A stretch of DNA of 22,576 nucleotides from IMG/VR virus record IMGVR_UViG_3300043410_000631, positions 1 through 22,576 of that record; one strand, given 5' to 3'. Below the pieces are notes generated by a model that was given only the letters and a program-made list of their open reading frames with translations, was not told where the DNA came from and did no database searches. Position numbers and translations under genes: made by a program. Every line of letters starts with the position of its first letter. Positions within the stretch are counted from its first letter, which is position 1. Positions 1-9,992 of the stretch are shown here, piece by piece. This DNA comes from a virus.

Positions 1-351
1 TGCCTTAATGGCATCTTCTGCTAAGATCGAGCAGTGTATTTTAACCGGAGGCAATGCTAGCTCTTCGGCGATTTGGCTGTTTTTAATTGATCCTGCTTCA
101 TCAAGTGTTTTTCCTTTGACCCATTCCGTGACAAGGCTCGAGCTTGCGATAGCCGATCCGCAGCCATACGTTTTAAATTTCGCATCTGTAATAATACCTG
201 TATCATGGTCAACCTTTATTTGTAGTTTCATTACATCGCCGCAAGCAGGTGCACCAACCATGCCGGTACCGACTGACCTATCATCTTTAGCGAAAGAACC
301 CACATTTCGTGGGTTCTCATAATGGTCAATAACTTGATTCGAATATGCCAT
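1..351 (-). CDS. iscU: IscU iron-sulfur cluster scaffold protein (3' end cut by window edge)
   Basis: The 117 visible codons translate to an IscU-type scaffold, which assembles [2Fe-2S] clusters from sulfur supplied by a cysteine desulfurase and passes them to apo-proteins. All hallmark residues are visible: Cys37 and Asp39 (in PACGD), Cys64 (in YGCGSA), and His106-Cys107 preceded by LPPVK, the motif bound by the HscA chaperone. The family is about 128 residues long, so roughly ten C-terminal residues lie beyond the window. The ATG at 351 follows a clear AGGAG (356-360). It lies downstream of csp and the 48-residue gene on the same strand, after a leader of about 110 nt. Identification as the IscU type, rather than NifU or SufU, rests on the LPPVK-IHC motif. 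Its presence in a phage is unusual. Confidence 0.93.
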   Translation of the reverse strand, partial: MAYSNQVIDHYENPRNVGSFAKDDRSVGTGMVGAPACGDVMKLQIKVDHDTGIITDAKFKTYGCGSAIASSSLVTEWVKGKTLDEAGSIKNSQIAEELALPPVKIHCSILAEDAIKA

Positions 352-2017: not shown

Positions 2018-2497
2018 TTATTTTTCTTCAGTGTCTTGTGGTATTTCACATAATGCTTCTAGTGTTTTATAATGCTCATAGGCTTTTTTAAGAGCTTCAA
2101 AGTGTTCTAACTTTGCAGGATCTGGTCTTAGAATTGCAAGTCTACTTTCGATTTTCTTAATGGTATCTAAAATACTAACGCCTTTAATCTTAACATCGCC
2201 CTCGAACACTGCATTATCTTTAACATGTAGTCCCGATGAAAGTGTTGTGTTGCTGCCGCTGGACCCCACAGCACCAGTTGTATACCACGGTGATGACCAT
2301 GTTGTGCCATTACTACCGCTAGTAGTCGAAATTGTTATATTCCCTATAGTACTGCTAGGGTAATTAATGGTGTTATAATTATACGAAGATGCCATACTTG
2401 CACTATCTATATAGACATCGTTTGTGAACAAATCATCTAATTTTATAGTATCTATTTGCTCAGAGGTTAGAGCAGGTATATCTTTATCATCATCCAT
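2018..2497 (-). CDS. Conserved phage protein, probable virion component, 159 aa
   Basis: Three parts are visible: an acidic N-terminus (MDDDKDIPALTSEQID), a Ser/Thr/Gly/Asn-rich middle without clear helices (about residues 33-90), and a C-terminus starting LHVKDNAVFEGDVKIKGVSILDTI, followed by a Glu/Lys coiled-coil-like helix (ERLAILRPDPAKLEHFEAL-like). The LHVK...FEGDVKIKG-S-DTI..IE.RLAIL pattern is one I associate with conserved proteins near structural genes of T4-like cyanophages. The function is not established. Its start overlaps the glutaredoxin stop by 8 nt, so translation is probably coupled. Confidence 0.75.
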   Translation of the reverse strand: MDDDKDIPALTSEQIDTIKLDDLFTNDVYIDSASMASSYNYNTINYPSSTIGNITISTTSGSNGTTWSSPWYTTGAVGSSGSNTTLSSGLHVKDNAVFEGDVKIKGVSILDTIKKIESRLAILRPDPAKLEHFEALKKAYEHYKTLEALCEIPQDTEEK

Positions 2498-2714
2498 TTA
2501 GGTGTGCCTTCAATTCTGTAAAGCCGCCAATAAGTTGATCGTCTAAAAAGATTTGAGGAACTGTACGTGCGTTAGGAACGGCTTCTAATAATTCTTCTTT
2601 GGTATATCCGTCTCCGATTTTCTTTTCTTCAAACGGAATACCTTTTTGACTTAATAATGCCTTTGCTTGATCGCAGTAAGGACAGTGATATTTAGACCAT
2701 ACAATTGCTTTCAT
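2490..2714 (-). CDS. grx: Glutaredoxin, 74 aa
   Basis: This is a compact thioredoxin-fold redoxin. It has the active-site CPYC (residues 11-14) in WSKYHCPYCDQAKALL, the cis-Pro motif RTVPQIFLDD, and the glycine pair GGFTEL that helps bind glutathione. It reduces disulfides, notably the C-terminal cysteines of ribonucleotide reductase. Here it is encoded downstream of nrdA and nrdB in the same run, which fits that job. The start at 2714 overlaps the stop of the preceding small gene (ATGA-type overlap) and its own stop overlaps the next gene. Confidence 0.95.
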   Translation of the reverse strand: MKAIVWSKYHCPYCDQAKALLSQKGIPFEEKKIGDGYTKEELLEAVPNARTVPQIFLDDQLIGGFTELKAHLNG

Positions 2715-2881
2715 TATGCTTTCTCCACTTCAACTAATACATCCCCTGCAACTAAACCTTGAACAACTTCTTCAATGGTTGCAGGTAGATCATCAAACCC
2801 TGTTTTTTCTGCATCATCACCTCTGTCTCTAACTAATTGACTTAATTTTACAACAAAGATAGTTTCTTCAATTCTTGCCAT
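2714..2881 (-). CDS. Small conserved phage protein, 55 aa
   Basis: The start at 2881 (MARIEETIFVVKLSQLV) is chosen because GGAGGT lies just upstream; a longer reading from 2944 lacks such a site and overlaps the previous gene. The product is acidic and ends DVLVEVEKA. A strand-like EETIFVVKLS segment is followed by a helix-like EEVVQGLV segment. I recall similar short proteins from marine T4-like phages between nrd genes and glutaredoxin, with no known function. It is 2 nt downstream of the 49-aa gene and overlaps the glutaredoxin start. Confidence 0.75.
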   Translation of the reverse strand: MARIEETIFVVKLSQLVRDRGDDAEKTGFDDLPATIEEVVQGLVAGDVLVEVEKA

Positions 2882-2883
2882 CT

Positions 2884-3033
2884 TTACCTCCAAGTTTTCT
2901 GTGCAATCCAGTGTTGTATGCGCTGGATACGCCATGCGGCCCACATTGGGGCTCTAAATAATGCTCGACCACTAGGTGTGTACAGCATTAGATCACTGCC
3001 TACTCCCATTAGTCCTATAAATGGTAATTTCAT
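2884..3033 (-). CDS. Small basic protein between nrdB and the 55-aa gene, 49 aa
   Basis: The product begins MKLPFIGLMGVGSDLMLYT and ends QHWIAQKTWR. It is Trp- and Arg-rich in its second half (FRAPMWAAWRIQRIQHW) with a hydrophobic N-terminus, so a peripheral membrane location is possible. The ATG at 3033 overlaps the nrdB stop as ATGA, and its stop lies 2 nt from the next ATG. The tight packing supports a real gene. No function is recognised. Confidence 0.68.
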   Translation of the reverse strand: MKLPFIGLMGVGSDLMLYTPSGRALFRAPMWAAWRIQRIQHWIAQKTWR

Positions 3034-4130
3034 AAATCCGGTAACTCCTCGTGTTCTACAGCATCTGACATTACACCAATAACGTAGTTTGTACTTTCGT
3101 TTTCTTGTAATGCGGTTTGCTTCTTATTAATGTTCACATGTTTGTTAAACCAAGGAATTGGAGTAGTTTTCGGATGTTCCTCAAGATACTTAATTCCTAT
3201 ATCTTTTAATTTAGTAAAAGCAGTATAGTCTACAAAGTCTTTTAGAATTTGTGCATTAAGTCCAATTACCACGCCTCGCCTGAATAGATAATCTGCCCAG
3301 TCTTTTTCTTCTTTAATCACTTCTATATACATGGCATAGACTTCTTCTCGGCATTCTTCTTCAATTGCCACAAACTCTGGATCATCTTTGATTACGTTGT
3401 TAATAATCCAAGCGGTCCACTCGCTGTGCAGGATTTCATCTTGTAAGATTAAACTGATAATGTTACCATTACCAATATAGATCTTATTTTCTACCATGGC
3501 CAATGAAGTGGCAAAAGATACCATGAACCGTAGGGCCTCAAGGGCGTAGGAGGCATGTAGTGCCATCCATATTGCTCGCTTGTGAGTATAGATTGGAATG
3601 TCTTCGCCCAACTCTTTACGGCTGTTAAGAATATGAAGAGCCTCATAGTAGCGACCAATATTAGCAGCCATGCCAGCAATTTCAGCTGTGTCATGAATCT
3701 TATTGAATTCATCTTTTGGTACTCCATATACGTTACGGATGATATGACTGTAACTCTTACTATGGATGCTGGTTTCAAAGAAACTCCAAGTAAGTGTTAG
3801 TGCTTCGAGTTCGGGGATTGAGCAAACCGGGCCGAAAACCTGGAAAGGCGCACGACCTTGAATGCTGTCTAATGCTGTCTGGCGTAGTAAGTTGCTGGTA
3901 AAGATATGTTTAACAGCATCACTAGCTTCCTTGTGATCCATTTTATCTTTGGTTAAACTAATTTCTTCAGGCACCCAAAAGAATCCACGAGCAAGTTCTT
4001 CAAATTTACTTAATTTAGGATACTTAACTTCTTCGAATCGCTGAACTGTAACTGGACCTTCTGGGTCCAGAAACATCTTACGCTTTAGATAGTTTGTAGG
4101 TTTTGTAAAATCGTATTGTGCTTTACTCAT
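3030..4130 (-). CDS. nrdB: Ribonucleoside-diphosphate reductase class Ia, beta subunit (NrdB), 366 aa
   Basis: This is the radical-generating small subunit that pairs with NrdA to make deoxynucleotides. Visible ligands of the diiron centre are Asp88 (in LDSIQGR), Glu119 and His123 (in FFETSIHSKSY), Glu198 (in ALEALRF), and Glu232 and His235 (in EILHSEW). The radical tyrosine is Tyr127. Length fits the family (about 350-380). The helix carrying the first Glu-His pair reads E-T-S-I-H, one residue longer than E-T-I-H in E. coli and T4. The start at 4130 overlaps the stop of the Cys/His mini-protein (ATGA), and its stop overlaps the 49-aa gene. Separation from nrdA by aceA is unusual. Confidence 0.97.
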   Translation of the reverse strand: MSKAQYDFTKPTNYLKRKMFLDPEGPVTVQRFEEVKYPKLSKFEELARGFFWVPEEISLTKDKMDHKEASDAVKHIFTSNLLRQTALDSIQGRAPFQVFGPVCSIPELEALTLTWSFFETSIHSKSYSHIIRNVYGVPKDEFNKIHDTAEIAGMAANIGRYYEALHILNSRKELGEDIPIYTHKRAIWMALHASYALEALRFMVSFATSLAMVENKIYIGNGNIISLILQDEILHSEWTAWIINNVIKDDPEFVAIEEECREEVYAMYIEVIKEEKDWADYLFRRGVVIGLNAQILKDFVDYTAFTKLKDIGIKYLEEHPKTTPIPWFNKHVNINKKQTALQENESTNYVIGVMSDAVEHEELPDL

Positions 4131-4210
4131 TTGTAGTCACCAGGTGGTATGTGTGGGCACGGCTGTTTATCACCATGTCGTGTGTGGCATTTAGGGCAGA
4201 ATGGTTCCAT
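4127..4210 (-). CDS. Cys/His-rich mini-protein, zinc-finger-like, 27 aa
   Basis: A 27-residue open frame begins MEPFCPKCHTRHGD and holds Cys5, Cys8, Cys18 and His20, a CX2C...CXH arrangement able to bind one zinc ion. Its start lies 2 nt after the aceA stop and its stop codon overlaps the nrdB ATG (ATGA), so it fills the gap exactly. That packing is the main support for a real gene, because the RBS is weak. No family is recognised. It might serve chiefly to couple nrdB translation to aceA. Confidence 0.55.
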   Translation of the reverse strand: MEPFCPKCHTRHGDKQPCPHIPPGDYK

Positions 4211-4212
4211 GA

Positions 4213-5418
4213 TTAAAATTGATCCGCCTCTGTTGAATGTGTGTTTGCTACTGTAGAGGTTGCACCGACTGCTGTACTGATAAGGTCAAAGTACCCAACA
4301 CCTACTTCTCGTTGGTGTTTGACCGTTGTGAATCCGCGAGCCTGTGCTTCAAACTCACGTTGTTGCATTTCGCTGTAACCAGCCATGCCACGTGCTTTAT
4401 ATGCTTCTGCTAGTTCAAAGGTAGCAAGGTTAACACTATGGAAACCTGCTAAGGTAATAAACTGGAACTTGTAGCCTAATTCACCTAGTTCACGTTGGAA
4501 TGTTTCACATTCTTCTATCGATAAGAATTTTTGCCAGTTAAACGACGGAGAGCAGTTATAAGCCAACATCTGATCTGGGAATTCTGCGTGGATTGCATCG
4601 GCAAACTTTTTGGCTTGTTTGATGTCTGGGGTACTAGTTTCGAACCATAGTAGGTCTGCATATGGAGCGTAAGCCAAGCCCCTTGCAATGCAAGCATCGA
4701 TACCGTTTCTAAATTTGTAAAACCCTTCTTCTGTTCTTTCATTGATTACAAAGTCCTTGTCTAATGGATCATGGTTGCTAGTAATTAGAGTAGCGGCTTC
4801 TGCATCTGTACGTGCCATGATCACAGTGTCAACACCGGCAACATCTGCGGCTAGGCGGGCGGCGTTGAGTGTACGAATCATTTGGCTGGTAGGTACAAGA
4901 ACCTTGCCACCCAAGTGTCCACATTTCTTTTCGCTAGCTAACTGATCTTCAAAGTGTACGCCTGCGGCGCCTGCTTCAATCATAGCACTCATTAATTCGT
5001 ATGCGTTCAAGGCACCACCAAAGCCGGCTTCTGCATCAGCAACAATGGGCAAGAAATAATCGGTAGATACATTCCCTTCACTATGTTCAATTTGATCAGC
5101 GCGACGGAAAGCATTGTTAATGCCTTTAACTACACGAGGTACAGAATCTACAGGGTACAAAGATTGATCTGGATATGTTTGATTTGCTGTATTGTTAGCG
5201 CCGGCAACTTGCCAACCTGACAAGTAAATCGCTTTCAACCCCGCCTTAGCGTGTTGTACGGCCATTTGACCGTTATATGCTCCGAGCGTATTGATGTACG
5301 GCTCATTTGCTAATAGCTCACGTAGTTTATATGCTCCACGCTTGGCTAATGTGTGTTCAATCTGTACACTACCCTGTAGCTTTCTGACTGTGTCTTGTGT
5401 GTAGTTGCGCTTTTTCAT
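4213..5418 (-). CDS. aceA: Isocitrate lyase, 401 aa
   Basis: Isocitrate lyase splits isocitrate into glyoxylate and succinate, the first step of the glyoxylate shunt. The signature KKCGH (164-168, catalytic Cys166) followed by LGGK is present. So are SGWQVAG and YPDQSLYPV (67-90), the Mg-binding ADAEAGFGG (127-135), HFEDQ (155-159), NCSPSFNW (288-295) and a C-terminus STEADQF, matching the conserved end of the family. At 401 residues it is slightly shorter than the bacterial 428-434, but all catalytic blocks are intact, so it looks functional. The ATG has AAGGAG upstream and lies 12 nt after nrdA, so it belongs to the nrdA-nrdB transcript. No malate synthase is seen in the window. Confidence 0.97.
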
Positions 5419-5430
5419 TTATTCTCCTTG

Positions 5431-7764
5431 TTATAATTTACACGCTTCGCAATCGTCGTCCTCTAATACTTCGTAGATAACAACATTATCTGCGGCGTTG
5501 ACGTTTGTAACAACGTTAGTATTTGTCACACTGGCCTTTGCGCCGACTTTATTAATTAGACTATAGTAGATGGTCTTAACGCCCCACTTGTAGGCAAGCA
5601 TAAGATTCTTTGCAATAATTGTTCCAGGAACCTTGCCACCATAATGAGCAGGGTTGTAGAATGTATTTGTTGATAATGACTGATCAATGTATGCGGCTAG
5701 TACTGCTGATGTCTTTAAATAATCAACACAATCATGTTGGTCCCACATCAATTGGTAACGATTCTTTAGACGTTTGTATTCAGGTACAACCTGTACAAAC
5801 GATCCAGCTTTCGATTCCTTCACAGAAATCAATTCCATCGGCATTTCAATTCCGTTGGTGGAGTTTAATACAACTGAGCTGGACTCTACTGGTGCTACTG
5901 CCATTAGTGTGGCATTACGAATACCGTACTTCTTCATACGCTCACGTAGTGGTTCCCAATCCATGCTAGGAGTAAAATCAGTTAATTCGTTTACTCCTGC
6001 ATTACGGCGTTCCCAAGGAAATACTCCCTTACCGTACCAAGTGTGTTGGCTACGCTCGCAGGCCCCTCTTTCTTGGGCAAGTTCCACACTAGTCTCTGTT
6101 AGGTAATATGCTTGGTGTTCCATCCAACGCTTAACTTCGGCAAGTGCTTCGGCAGTACCATATTTGTAACTACGACGAGCATGCCAGTATGCCAGGTTAG
6201 TAATGCCAACACCTAATGGTTCAAAGTCTTTATTGGCAAGGCGACTCTGAACACTTAAGAAGTCTTGATAGTTTAGTAAGTTGCTGAGCGAGCGAACCAA
6301 TACTCTACAAGCCTTACGCATTTCTTGAGGGTTGCGGAAAGCACCCCAATTGATTGACCCAAGTGTACAAAGAGCAATGCGTCCTGTAGGATCTTCAATT
6401 CTTTGGAAAGGCTTTGTGGGCAACAGAATTTCTTGGCACAGATTTGATTGATAGATCGGATCCACCGTCGTGTCGAACGGACCCTGGTTGATAACGTTAT
6501 CAATATTGACCAAATATATTCTGCCCGTATCAGTGCGTTCCTTAAGGATACCATTTTTGAATATCTCATCCGCCGATACAACTTTCTTTTTCTTTGTCTT
6601 ATCTTGCTCATACTGTAAGTATAATGCCTCAAATTCTGCACTGTCTCTGTAATATGCTTCGTACAAGTCTGGAACTTCGTGTGGATCGAACAATGTAATA
6701 TTCTCACCGTTCTTATAGCGGCGCCAGAACATGGCATTAACAACAACACTATAATCCATTTGACGTACACGAGTTTCTTCTGTACCTTGATTATTCTTTA
6801 GAACAATAAGGTCTTCGAATTGAGCGTGCCATACAGGGAATGTAACTGTACAACTAGCATTACGAATGCCACCTTGACTGCAACTACGCAGGTCAGCAAA
6901 CCATTTCTTCAAGAATGGTATCATACCCGTGTGTTTGATTTCTCCGTTGCGAATTGGGGCACCTAAGGGGCGAATTCTGCCTATTTCGAGACCAATTCCG
7001 GCTCGTTTTGAAGCATATTTGGCCATCATTTCGCCAGCTGCAAATATGCTATCCAAAGTATCGTCGCTACTAATGAGAACACAAGAACTAAACTGCTTTG
7101 TAGTAGTGCCGAGGCCAGCCAGCACAGGGGTAGCAAGAGTGAAATGACCATCACTAGCACATTCGTAGTATTCTTTGACATATTTTAACCTTTTATCTGC
7201 AGGTTCGCTATGGAACGCTGTGGCGGCTGCTATAGCGTAACGTACCTGGGGTGTTTCATAAATTTGACCTGTGGCGCGATTCTGTACAAGATACTTTTCT
7301 GCTAATTGTGCAATAGCGGCATAGGTATATTGTTCGTCCTTTGCGTGGTCGATGAACAGATCAATTATATCCCATTCTTCTTTTGTGTACCAGTCTAGTA
7401 GTTCACTAGTGTACATACTAAGTTCCACATTCTTCTTTACAATGTCGTAAAGTGCAGGAGGTTCGTATGTCCCATATACTTCTTTGCGTAGCATAGAGAC
7501 TTTTTGCCTGCCTGCTACGTATTGATAATTGACATTATTAATTTCTGGATTTTCAGTTTCGTCGATTAAGTCAACCATGGCCTTGAGTAATAGCTCGTCT
7601 ATGGTCTTTGTCGACATTCCGTCATGTAATTCTATTTGTGCTTTAATTTCGATCATCGAGGGGCTAACGCCGTCAATTCCTCTACATCCATAAGCTACCT
7701 GTCTCTGTATTTTTGCGATATCTAACGGAACGCGATGTCCGTTACGCTTGACCACTGTGATCAT
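5431..7764 (-). CDS. nrdA: Ribonucleoside-diphosphate reductase class Ia, alpha subunit (NrdA), 777 aa
   Basis: This is the catalytic large subunit reducing ribonucleoside diphosphates. An N-terminal ATP-cone (about residues 1-95, starting MITVVKRNGHRVPLD) is followed by the ten-stranded barrel. It has redox Cys228 (FSSCVL), the active-site NLCQE (Asn441, Cys443, Glu445), second redox Cys466 (ALCTLGS), and the radical-transfer pair Tyr733-Tyr734 (KTIYYSL). The tail ends DDDCEACKL with Cys772 and Cys775, the shuttle cysteines re-reduced by glutaredoxin; their spacing (CX2C) is shorter than in E. coli. An intact ATP-cone suggests dATP/ATP control. The RBS is GAGGG. It is the first gene of the nrd-ace run. 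Confidence 0.98.
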   Translation of the reverse strand: MITVVKRNGHRVPLDIAKIQRQVAYGCRGIDGVSPSMIEIKAQIELHDGMSTKTIDELLLKAMVDLIDETENPEINNVNYQYVAGRQKVSMLRKEVYGTYEPPALYDIVKKNVELSMYTSELLDWYTKEEWDIIDLFIDHAKDEQYTYAAIAQLAEKYLVQNRATGQIYETPQVRYAIAAATAFHSEPADKRLKYVKEYYECASDGHFTLATPVLAGLGTTTKQFSSCVLISSDDTLDSIFAAGEMMAKYASKRAGIGLEIGRIRPLGAPIRNGEIKHTGMIPFLKKWFADLRSCSQGGIRNASCTVTFPVWHAQFEDLIVLKNNQGTEETRVRQMDYSVVVNAMFWRRYKNGENITLFDPHEVPDLYEAYYRDSAEFEALYLQYEQDKTKKKKVVSADEIFKNGILKERTDTGRIYLVNIDNVINQGPFDTTVDPIYQSNLCQEILLPTKPFQRIEDPTGRIALCTLGSINWGAFRNPQEMRKACRVLVRSLSNLLNYQDFLSVQSRLANKDFEPLGVGITNLAYWHARRSYKYGTAEALAEVKRWMEHQAYYLTETSVELAQERGACERSQHTWYGKGVFPWERRNAGVNELTDFTPSMDWEPLRERMKKYGIRNATLMAVAPVESSSVVLNSTNGIEMPMELISVKESKAGSFVQVVPEYKRLKNRYQLMWDQHDCVDYLKTSAVLAAYIDQSLSTNTFYNPAHYGGKVPGTIIAKNLMLAYKWGVKTIYYSLINKVGAKASVTNTNVVTNVNAADNVVIYEVLEDDDCEACKL

Positions 7765-7798
7765 TAGTAACCCTCTTTTTATAGTTCTAGGTTGATAT

Positions 7799-8233
7799 TT
7801 ACCTTGGAGTGGTAACTTCTACCAAATTTTCTAGTCTAAATGAGCCGGTCAATTCTTCTTCGTGTACGGGCCCATTATCATTGTAGTTAATAACCCACTC
7901 GTCATTAACGTAAACTAAATTATACTGCCTGGTTTGGTTGCTGTCTATAAGAGTCCTAACCTCAATCTTGGAATCCTTAAATTTTTTTGTCAATTTAAGT
8001 GTCCAACCTATCATTAGTGCCTTGGTAAAATCATCATATTTGTTTTCTGCAATGATTTCCCAAGGACTGGGCCAGCTCTTTTGAAAATAAGGGTCTATAT
8101 TTTTATTATGCGGGACAAAGGGAGCTTGATGCCAGAAATCCCAAACTACCTGTAGGGGATCTTCAACCTCATCCAACTCTCTTCTATGATTTGCCCACTC
8201 TGTTAATCTACTATCTACAGGTTGGTTAAACAT
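7799..8233 (-). CDS. Conserved phage protein, 144 aa, unknown function
   Basis: The central block reads WDFWHQAPFVPHNKNIDPYFQ, then SWPSPWEIIAENKYDDFTKALMIGWTLKL and, later, RQYNLVYVNDEWVINYND. I recognise this Trp-rich arrangement from conserved hypothetical proteins of T4-like marine phages, where it often lies among tail genes. There are no membrane segments and no catalytic motif I can name. The ATG at 8233 follows AAGGA, 7 nt after the tail-spike stop, so the two are likely co-transcribed; the protein could be an accessory or chaperone for the spike, which is only inferred from position. Confidence 0.8.
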   Translation of the reverse strand: MFNQPVDSRLTEWANHRRELDEVEDPLQVVWDFWHQAPFVPHNKNIDPYFQKSWPSPWEIIAENKYDDFTKALMIGWTLKLTKKFKDSKIEVRTLIDSNQTRQYNLVYVNDEWVINYNDNGPVHEEELTGSFRLENLVEVTTPR

Positions 8234-8240
8234 GTTTTCC

Positions 8241-9992
8241 TTACAACATTAACTTAGTTTGCATTTCCACTATAACATCAGGGTTTGCTAGTAGAGGATT
8301 AATGCCACTTAACTCATAATACTTATATGCAGGCTCAACAGTTACACTCCAATATAGGCCGCCGTCGCTAGGAGATGAATTGTATTCGTCATATATTTTT
8401 ACATTAGCAGGTGTAGTTCCACCACGGACTAATATTTTTAAATTGCCGAATCTATTAATTGCGCCATTACCGGACGAAGCTCTATATTTTATGTCAAGGT
8501 GCTGAGGGTAACCAGTGATAGGTAATCTTATTAATGCCGTAGATGTATTTGCTATTAATGTTGATGTAGATACAGAGTTTAAATCAACAGTTGTTCTGCC
8601 TTCTATTAAAGGGTAGTAGGTATCGGTTGCACCTCTTGTTTCATCATGCCACTTTTGTCTATTAAAGAAATCATTTACACTAGAATTGCCTGCTGTTTCA
8701 AACCTAATTACAGATGTGCCGTCTGTATACGATTCTGTTGCCCTACCATAATTTCCTACTCTAATATAAGAGTTATTTTGACTGACATTATATGCCGGTG
8801 CTCCTGTAGCAGATGTACCTACTAAAAATCCTTGATATTCAATTTCTTCAAATTTATTACGTTCAACGCGAGAGTATGTAGGACCAGTAAGTGCTAGAGA
8901 ATTGTATTCAGATAAGAATGCGACACCATAGGCAGAATATTTAAAACTATTATTCTGAATGATAATGTGATTAGTATCCCAGTTAGATTTAACACAGTAG
9001 TACAATCCTGTAAATTGACAATTATCAATTAAAATGTTTTCCGAAGTAACCGCACTATATCCACGAATGTCAATACCTGTGTAATCCTCATCAGCAGGAG
9101 TTACATAAGAATGATGTCCTTGGAATTTTACATTGCGTACCACGCCATGATCAACACAGTCTAAGCTCAACAGGCTAAGATGAGGAGTTAATGCTGTAGA
9201 GGTGCTGTACATCAATGTCATGCCCTCTATGTGTATGTTTGCAGGCTGTCCTGTTCCCTGAATAGTGTTTGCAGAACTATCAGTTAAAGGATCAAATTTA
9301 CCTAAAGAACCTCTTAATGCAGGATTACCATCTTTGTCTAACGTTGCTTGTCTATTCTTCCAATCAACTGTTTGAAAAATTCCAGATCCGAGACCTACAT
9401 TTTCGATAATAGTCTTATCAATTCCCTCTCCTACAATTACTGTGTTTTTAGGAATATAAATTGTGTCGCTGATTCTATAGTGTCCTGCTGGAATATACAG
9501 CTTCTTGTTATAGCGTAAATCACCAGAAGTGTCAAATACAGTACCGTCATCAATGTCCATGTTTAGGAATAAATGGTCAACAGCCTTTTGAATTGCTGTA
9601 GTGCAATCAACAGCAGTAGACGATGTTGTTACTACCCCGAAGTCTGCAATACTAACAAAGTCGTCTAATTTGTCTTGGGCAGTTCTTATAGTCCTATTGG
9701 TATAATCCGGAACAGGATCTGTTGATGTTACAGTATCAGAGGAATTTAATTCCCAAGTGTAATTTGCGTTTAACGATGTGCTAGAGACAAACGAGCTAAA
9801 CAGCCTTAGGTCGTTTTCGGTTAAAACTCGAACATTTGCATCGCGAGCACCGCCGTCCTCTCTTTTAAGACCTATGTATAGGTTTTCAGTATCTTCCGCC
9901 CATGCAAATTCACCACCTGCAAGTTGCGGAATACCTGTTTGATTTTCTTGTCCTCGTCTGACCTGAATTCGAGCAATCTCAATAACAGCCAT
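8241..9992 (-). CDS. Tail spike or fibre protein with pectate-lyase-like beta-helix, 583 aa
   Basis: Residues 1-60 (IQVRRGQENQTGIPQLAGGEFAW... and LYIGLK) resemble the short attachment domain found at the N-terminus of phage tropism determinants and fibre proteins. A right-handed beta-helix of the pectate-lyase-3 type follows: DDFVSIADFGV, then DCTTAIQKAVDHL, LYIPAGHYRIS, repeated N-rich turns (ENILIDNCQFTG, HIIIQNNSFKYS). The C-terminal 110 residues are a separate Ser/Thr-rich domain, probably for trimerisation or receptor binding. It would bind or degrade a host surface polysaccharide. No catalytic residues can be assigned by eye. A late-type promoter and a hairpin lie immediately upstream. 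Confidence 0.85.
   Translation of the reverse strand: MAVIEIARIQVRRGQENQTGIPQLAGGEFAWAEDTENLYIGLKREDGGARDANVRVLTENDLRLFSSFVSSTSLNANYTWELNSSDTVTSTDPVPDYTNRTIRTAQDKLDDFVSIADFGVVTTSSTAVDCTTAIQKAVDHLFLNMDIDDGTVFDTSGDLRYNKKLYIPAGHYRISDTIYIPKNTVIVGEGIDKTIIENVGLGSGIFQTVDWKNRQATLDKDGNPALRGSLGKFDPLTDSSANTIQGTGQPANIHIEGMTLMYSTSTALTPHLSLLSLDCVDHGVVRNVKFQGHHSYVTPADEDYTGIDIRGYSAVTSENILIDNCQFTGLYYCVKSNWDTNHIIIQNNSFKYSAYGVAFLSEYNSLALTGPTYSRVERNKFEEIEYQGFLVGTSATGAPAYNVSQNNSYIRVGNYGRATESYTDGTSVIRFETAGNSSVNDFFNRQKWHDETRGATDTYYPLIEGRTTVDLNSVSTSTLIANTSTALIRLPITGYPQHLDIKYRASSGNGAINRFGNLKILVRGGTTPANVKIYDEYNSSPSDGGLYWSVTVEPAYKYYELSGINPLLANPDVIVEMQTKLML

Follow-up and report, generated by a model that had tools for sequence, protein, structure and literature searches.

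Bacterial isocitrate lyases (ICL; AceA, NF011645), for which solved structures include those of Chloroflexus (6lrp), Bacillus cereus (7cmx), and M. tuberculosis (5dql), have the same single-domain fold and active-site residues as the phage protein described here, which starts roughly 20 to 30 residues later than they do. Genes for ICL have been reported from viruses before. Passages of earlier papers describe an aceBA operon in TARA_ERS478052_N000008, a viral genome with homologs of T4-like structural genes (PMC5332604), aceA and aceB in Pacific viromes (PMC4053976), viral aceA among viruses under Antarctic ice (PMC10721903) and from a Tibetan lake sediment, with nrdA named in the same sentence (PMC12783922), and Mimiviridae transcripts for ICL and malate synthase (PMC9270025); PMC12628691 contains isocitrate lyase solely in a reference. 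For the T-even phages, sections of PMC2988022 and PMC3653736 describe homing endonuclease genes between nrdA and nrdB, mobE among them.

We analyzed a whole linear, metagenome-derived IMG/VR record of 22,576 bp, hereafter the window, which encodes an ICL within a ribonucleotide reductase (RNR) operon. Whereas aceA is paired with aceB in TARA_ERS478052_N000008, the window ICL stands alone. The insertion site is the same gap in a class Ia RNR operon that holds mobE in T-even phages. In contrast to the T-even case, the cargo of sister phages includes metabolic genes (ICL, IscU, IscA, aldolase, and superoxide dismutase), with endonucleases in 5 sister loci and many cargo open reading frames (ORFs) unidentified. 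In the literature covered, mainly open-access main texts, we found no report of ICL in an RNR operon or of this slot as a site for metabolic genes, nor, in the same body of texts, of ICL neighboring a desaturase or an alternative oxidase. Viral aceA is already known; its standalone form, its two phage groups, and its mobility in the RNR slot appear to be new.

The isocitrate lyase and its operon

The features of the operon region, all on the minus strand, are as follows.

1 to 351, minus strand: Fe-S scaffold IscU (NifU_N), truncated at the edge of the window (profile searches)
2490 to 2714, minus strand: glutaredoxin (grx), the next recognizable member of the RNR set (PF00462)
2714 to 2944, minus strand: 76-aa ORF without known function in the nrdB-grx gap, a cargo position (ORF list)
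3030 to 4130, minus strand: nrdB, RNR small subunit, 366 aa (profile searches)
4127 to 4210, minus strand: 27-codon ORF, MEPFCPKCHTRHGDKQPCPHIPPGDYK, which shows a Cys/His pattern and ends in a stop codon overlapping the start of nrdB (predicted ORF, translation)
4213 to 5418, minus strand: isocitrate lyase (aceA), 401 aa, complete, ATG start (ORF list, profile and structure searches)
5424 to 5429, minus strand: AAGGAG, Shine-Dalgarno-like, 5 nt ahead of the ICL ATG (sequence)
5431 to 7764, minus strand: nrdA, class Ia RNR large subunit, 777 aa (profile searches)

The position of ICL in the first-pass annotation was exact; the strand, which it had not given, is minus, and the plus strand of this interval is full of stops. 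The end of nrdA is separated from the start of ICL by 12 bp, and ICL is followed by the 27-codon ORF and then by nrdB. That annotation had placed ICL inside a phage dNTP operon behind a strong ribosome binding site, and both observations held: the flanking genes nrdA and nrdB share the strand of ICL and have class Ia RNR subunits as their matches, and AAGGAG is found at 5429-5424. NrdB scored below the curated class Ia cutoff (298 versus 346) and matched the phage family phrog_86 at 366 bits. IscU is a cargo gene of the nrdA-nrdB slot in some relatives.

A scan of positions 2400 to 8300 detected no terminator-like site between nrdA, ICL, and nrdB; the single site found in this region (2453-2478) was on the plus strand. 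The same region had 13 promoter-like matches, compared with 14.9 in shuffles, one of which (9/12) lay directly ahead of ICL at 5513-5485 on the minus strand. Neither promoter-like nor terminator-like matches were commoner than in shuffled sequence. Judged from gene spacing, cotranscription of nrdA, ICL, and nrdB is plausible. The 27-codon ORF has close counterparts directly after ICL in the viral contigs L022, L023, and L067; the counterpart in L005 is more divergent. Because this small ORF recurs in L022, L023, and L067, where NrdA is only 68 to 71% identical to that of the window, ICL and the Cys/His ORF may travel as a pair.

The window protein matched NF011645, the NCBIfam ICL equivalog, at 682 bits against a cutoff of 562 (E = 2.1e-205), and its match to PF00463 was far above chance (E = 1e-102). 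The scores fell under the curated cutoffs of related families (118 versus 354 for TIGR02317, prpB; 52 versus 420 for TIGR02319), which ruled out a PEP mutase or methylisocitrate lyase. The same comparison (682 versus 562 bits; prpB, 118 versus 354) disposes of the concern, raised in the first-pass annotation, that the protein might be an inactive member of the PEP mutase family. The 401-aa ORF contains all of the catalytic blocks named there and an STE..QF end, as expected for the complete enzyme that it had claimed.

The best solved-structure matches were bacterial ICLs, 6lrp, 7cmx, and 5dql among them. In an alignment to M. tuberculosis ICL1 (5dql), window residues S67, G68, W69, D84, and D128 correspond to positions 91, 92, 93, 108, and 153; E130, E157, C166, H168, and R203 to 155, 182, 191, 193, and 228; and E260, N288, S290, S292, and T322 to 285, 313, 315, 317, and 347. 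None of the 15 catalytic or ligand positions checked varied across 19 aligned sequences, which included both viral and cellular ICLs. These positions include, in M. tuberculosis numbering, Cys191 and His193 of the catalytic KKCGH loop and the metal and substrate residues. The KKCGH and NCSPSFNW motifs were both intact in every one of the 152 viral ICLs of full length from the two viral sets; nine viral sequences below 380 aa are outside this count, in which the window itself (L001, reverse strand) is represented by the contig L002.

An AlphaFold model of the protein had a pLDDT of 83 and a pTM of 0.84, and Foldseek aligned it to the best solved ICLs with TM scores of 0.91 to 0.94 by query length. 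Confidence was lowest in the segment from 163 to 170, which is the KKCGH loop, and was also weak over the last 40 residues (block means of 48 to 63). A search of the BFVD with this model returned nothing ICL-like (TM < 0.4 by query length among the 50 matches listed), and a PHROGs search gave no match at an E value of 0.001. These data suggest that the window protein is probably a competent isocitrate lyase.

The contig L002 (IMGVR_UViG_3300047560_001489; 44,109 bp) matches the window end to end; identity is 100% over 11,443 bp, and a further 11,133 bp match at 99.93% (8 mismatches). Outside the window region it carries an A-type Fe-S carrier, a ClpX-like protein, and a DesA-family desaturase. 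A chimeric assembly was rejected as unlikely in view of this near-identical second contig and of the nrdA-ICL-nrdB order in 35 of 80 relatives (L002 included). Although the window is a linear record derived from a metagenome, assembly chimera or host contamination is an extremely improbable explanation given the recurrence of the gene order and a nearest sampled cellular ICL that is 67% identical among the matches listed. Alongside phage nrdA and nrdB, the window encodes a virion protein that matches the phage family phrog_5838 at 847 bits. Because this virion protein is approximately 43% identical to its cyanophage counterparts and is accompanied by the RNR genes, we infer that the window phage is T4-like.

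Viral relatives and gene neighborhoods

The first-pass annotation did not recognize ICL as a standard phage metabolic gene. The gene is no one-off: a scan of viral contigs with the window ICL identified 118 relatives, and viral aceA is already in print. We retained the best 80 of the 118 (87 to 100% identical), referred to here as window-type loci. A scan centered on the ICL of phage C48C1 (OQ984149; Kyanoviridae, complete) yielded 98 relatives, of which the best 80 were retained. The C48C1 protein (WJE87928.1), annotated as hypothetical, belongs to a second group that is 64 to 66% identical to the window ICL. In C48C1, unlike in the window, the ICL gene lies outside the RNR operon, and an alternative oxidase is encoded elsewhere in the genome; as with the window phage, no malate synthase was found. 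The C48C1-centered set of 81 loci includes L238, L239, and L242; L239 belongs to the window clade, and L242 falls among cellular ICLs.

Cellular ICLs from several phyla were at most 67% identical to the window ICL among the matches listed in a genome scan with two peptide patterns. A phylogeny against bacterial AceA and viral contigs had been proposed in the first-pass annotation, and we ran it as a quick tree search with 121 representatives (71 viral and 50 cellular). The window clade (38 sequences plus L239) had a support of 99, and the C48C1-type clade (31 sequences) had a support of 100. Both viral groups were separate from the sampled cellular ICLs, with L242 as the lone viral exception.

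We considered and rejected a recent transfer of ICL from a host in the order to which a Burkholderiaceae genome belongs, as sampled here. Of 150 genomes sampled from that order, 78 had an ICL match, with a full-length identity of 65% at best and one partial match at 67%. The window IscU was up to 91% identical in the same order (300 genomes, among the matches listed), so IscU and ICL, at only 65 to 67%, need not share a source. LD12/SAR11 was also rejected as a candidate host; glyoxylate genes are covered in PMC6018831, in whose relevant passages no link to the window phage was found.

ICL lay in an nrd cluster in 48 of the 80 window-type loci, with the order nrdA-ICL-nrdB in 35, nrdA-nrdB-ICL-grx in 9, nrdB-ICL in 2, and ICL-nrdB in 2. 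A fatty acid desaturase was encoded within 1.3 kb of ICL in 27 of the 32 other loci, one to three genes downstream in 26 and four genes upstream in one, and in these 27 no nrd gene was found within the fetched flanks. All neighbor counts refer to fetched flanks, which are cut short in several contigs; L031 was scored as nrdB-ICL although its NrdB was only 41% identical and 1.1 kb away. At 90% nucleotide identity over 80% of the region, the 80 loci formed 61 groups, comprising 29 nrdA-ICL-nrdB, 8 nrdA-nrdB-ICL, 2 nrdB-ICL, 2 ICL-nrdB, 15 desaturase, and 5 other groups. The distance from ICL to nrdA or nrdB was often 11 to 17 bp, but other cargo can intervene, and within the nrd cluster of L016 ICL and nrdB were up to 4.6 kb apart with other genes between them.

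None of the 81 loci in the C48C1-centered set showed nrdA, nrdB, or the desaturase in the fetched flanks, and an alternative oxidase was encoded within approximately 2.1 kb of ICL, on either side, in 26 of 81 (for example, L230:1779-2360; PF01786, 223 bits). Counted per record, an alternative oxidase was present in 6 of 30 viral records and in 0 of 19 window-type ones, a desaturase above the cutoff in 12 of 30, all of them window-type, and IscU in 16 of 30. Examples of the DesA-family desaturase are L030:2125-2835 and, in the window's own phage, L256:1995-2705, and another is found in the 338-kb contig L024. A class II aldolase/adducin-family gene also adjoins ICL in some desaturase-context loci. 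In L078, two related ORFs bracket ICL, one of them at 7208-7975; the one tested (255 aa) had no Pfam or PHROGs match.

Malate synthase (PF01274) was not found in 29 of the 30 related viral records, the 44-kb contig of the window phage being one of the 29 and many records being fragments, in line with the lack of the gene noted in the first-pass annotation. The one exception was L242/G028, whose ICL groups with cellular ICLs and which, with both enzymes, resembles the published aceBA virus. A whole glyoxylate shunt on the phage was not seen in these records, many of them fragments; PF01274 occurred in 1 of 30. The serine hydroxymethyltransferase (SHMT) family was found in 0 of 30 records; a supply of glycine, also suggested in that annotation, gained no support from a phage SHMT.

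The nrdA-nrdB slot and the separate history of ICL

The RNR operon was also examined in loci chosen without regard to ICL. Among the 80 listed loci whose NrdA is nearest to that of the window, a single one carried ICL in its fetched flanks, and this carrier was already known from the ICL set (L274 = L074). In an NrdA set centered on the ICL carrier L045, ICL was present in 10 of 80 loci among the matches listed, four of them contigs already in the window-type set (L353, L401, L402, and L418). The nrdA-nrdB gap of this set was shorter than 80 bp in 22 of the 74 loci having both genes, among the matches listed. Elsewhere, nrdA-nrdB gaps contained IscU, IscA, a class II aldolase, an Fe/Mn superoxide dismutase, an FAD-dependent oxidoreductase, an aspartyl/asparaginyl hydroxylase, a homing endonuclease, or unidentified ORFs. 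The homing endonuclease (phrog_655, 197 bits) lay in the nrdA-nrdB gap of L293 and L359, and its cluster occupied this gap in 5 sister loci; none was seen in the window's own gap. Between nrdB and grx, a tryptophan halogenase was encoded in L070/L071.

Cargo genes located near nrdB include the Fe/Mn superoxide dismutase (L385:3848-4399), the tryptophan halogenase (L070:3041-4507), the FAD-dependent oxidoreductase (DAO; L378:2329-3516), and the aspartyl/asparaginyl hydroxylase (L269:7548-8297). The class II aldolase/adducin family is a frequent slot cargo (L042:6224-6877 and L418:7337-7993).

Because sister phages hold unrelated cargo or a near-empty gap at this position, the nrdA-nrdB interval appears to be a recurrent insertion slot with ICL as one of its cargoes. 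In a comparison among nrdA-nrdB-grx gaps only, ICL looks like mobile cargo in such a slot.

Mantel comparisons of protein distances also separated ICL from the operon. In 27 of the 80 loci with full NrdA, NrdB, and ICL, NrdA and NrdB distances were correlated (0.818; 0 of 1,000 permutations as high), whereas ICL distances followed neither NrdA (-0.015) nor NrdB (-0.008); larger sets (28 loci for NrdA and 45 for NrdB) behaved alike. Mean ICL identity was 90.2% in pairs with NrdA identity below 75% and 90.7% in pairs above 85% (28 loci). By parsimony, the ICL tree requires at least 20 changes of context, and the NrdB tree at least 6 changes of position among carriers of ICL; both counts come from quick trees that include near-copies. 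The history of ICL, as read from these sequences, is decoupled from that of the RNR genes. Because ICL distances follow neither NrdA nor NrdB and context changes are many, repeated arrival, or repeated replacement in place, fits better than one insertion inherited with the operon. The median dN/dS of viral ICL was 0.058 (264 pairs with dS of 0.1 to 1.2), a value indicating that the viral enzyme is kept under purifying selection.

The nesting of ICL between the two reductase genes had been read in the first-pass annotation as a tie to dNTP synthesis. That reading is weakened by the unrelated cargo in the same gap, by the single ICL among the 80 nearest NrdA relatives listed, and by ICL distances that are uncorrelated with those of NrdA and NrdB.

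Possible roles during infection

Taking the evidence as a whole, we lean toward an explanation in which T4-like phages carry a probably competent ICL as a mobile auxiliary metabolic gene (AMG) that redirects host carbon and electron flow. Transcribed with nrdA and nrdB, the enzyme would be present during phage DNA synthesis, free of the control exerted on host aceA. By cleaving the isocitrate of the host to succinate and glyoxylate, it would skip the two steps of the tricarboxylic acid (TCA) cycle that release CO2 and generate NAD(P)H. Succinate would feed respiration at succinate dehydrogenase, sparing complex I and its iron, and glyoxylate would be consumed by host malate synthase or leave by another host route, for instance by transamination to glycine. 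The position of the gene would be accounted for by the slot, and its retention by the redirected carbon and electron flow. Against this explanation, ICL activity lowers the flux through isocitrate dehydrogenase and could cost NADPH needed by RNR.

The alternative oxidase near ICL in 26 of 81 C48C1-centered loci and the Fe-S genes fit the succinate dehydrogenase route, but the alternative oxidase neighbors come from the other ICL set, and 0 of 19 window-type records had a match to this oxidase. Some ICL neighbors may be present merely because the slot takes cargo. A succinate dehydrogenase route past complex I under iron limitation is raised as a possibility in a passage of PMC11069385. In Acinetobacter oleivorans, according to sections of PMC6779741, aceA but not malate synthase is required on 1% acetate or hexadecane, and the glyoxylate exit proposed there is oxalate, not glycine. 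In such a case, ICL without malate synthase can sustain growth, given another glyoxylate exit.

An alternative that we consider unlikely is that glyoxylate from the phage ICL is turned into glycine by host transaminases for purines and C1 units, which would make ICL and RNR parts of one dNTP program. The presence of ICL in the nrd cluster in 48 of 80 window-type loci, at two positions and with different RNR lineages, is consistent with such a program, as is the failure to find malate synthase in 29 of 30 records. However, the same gap carries unrelated cargo, 27 of 80 loci have ICL near a desaturase with no nrd gene in the fetched flanks, nrdA and nrdB occur in 0 of 81 C48C1-centered loci, and an SHMT family match in 0 of 30 records. 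Glycine from glyoxylate, together with succinyl-CoA from succinate, could instead feed heme synthesis, since both are substrates of a phage 5-aminolevulinate synthase (AlaS), and we give this proposal a small chance. AlaS matches were found in 10 of 50 ICL records searched (10 of 34 window-type and 0 of 16 others), two tested proteins scored 584 and 591 bits for TIGR01821 against a cutoff of 339, and phage AlaS is active according to PMC11480375, the main text of which mentions neither isocitrate nor glyoxylate. A scan for AlaS returned 478 viral relatives (genes at L444:1366-2568 and L446:1366-2562, for example). Against a general role, 9 of the 10 AlaS records were among 11 desaturase-context ones, several of them near-identical, and among window-type records AlaS occurred in 1 of 18 with RNR context and 0 of 5 others. 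Only 5 of 33 AlaS records contained ICL; the ICL scan had already yielded four of these, and in the fifth the match was partial and lay where the contig ends. No AlaS match was found in the window phage's own 44-kb contig or in the 374-, 338-, and 184-kb records. The AlaS link is real but lies mostly in desaturase-context relatives. We rank both proposals lower because SHMT was not found and because of this distribution of AlaS.

It is also quite improbable, in our view, that ICL is a passenger carried by the mobility of the slot, with small benefit to the window phage. Homing endonucleases do occupy the same gap, and ICL occurs in 1 of the 80 nearest NrdA relatives listed, as a passenger might, but the dN/dS of 0.058 and the intact KKCGH and NCSPSFNW motifs in all 152 full-length viral ICLs argue against this.

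A more far-reaching reading, to which we give a modest chance, is that the nrdA-nrdB-grx region might be a general docking platform for metabolic genes in a large group of uncultured T4-like phages, with ICL repeatedly placed near iron and oxygen enzymes in an iron-sparing rewiring. The company of ICL includes NrdB (48 of 80 loci), the desaturase (27 of 80), and the alternative oxidase (26 of 81 C48C1-centered loci), all three of them di-iron enzymes. If this reading is true, electrons would enter at succinate dehydrogenase and complex I would be bypassed, leaving more iron to the di-iron enzymes of the phage; the phage-encoded IscU, IscA, glutaredoxin, and superoxide dismutase would form part of the same rewiring.

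Earlier records of viral aceA were isolated virome matches or an aceBA pair; the gene now appears as a large family of phage enzymes, mostly without a phage malate synthase. The slot offers a simple search rule for phage metabolic genes, namely, to inspect the intervals between nrdA, nrdB, and grx, and a site already used by homing endonucleases is a possible route for the spread of such genes. The company that ICL keeps (RNR, desaturase, alternative oxidase, and Fe-S assembly) leads to testable ideas on the TCA cycle of infected cells.
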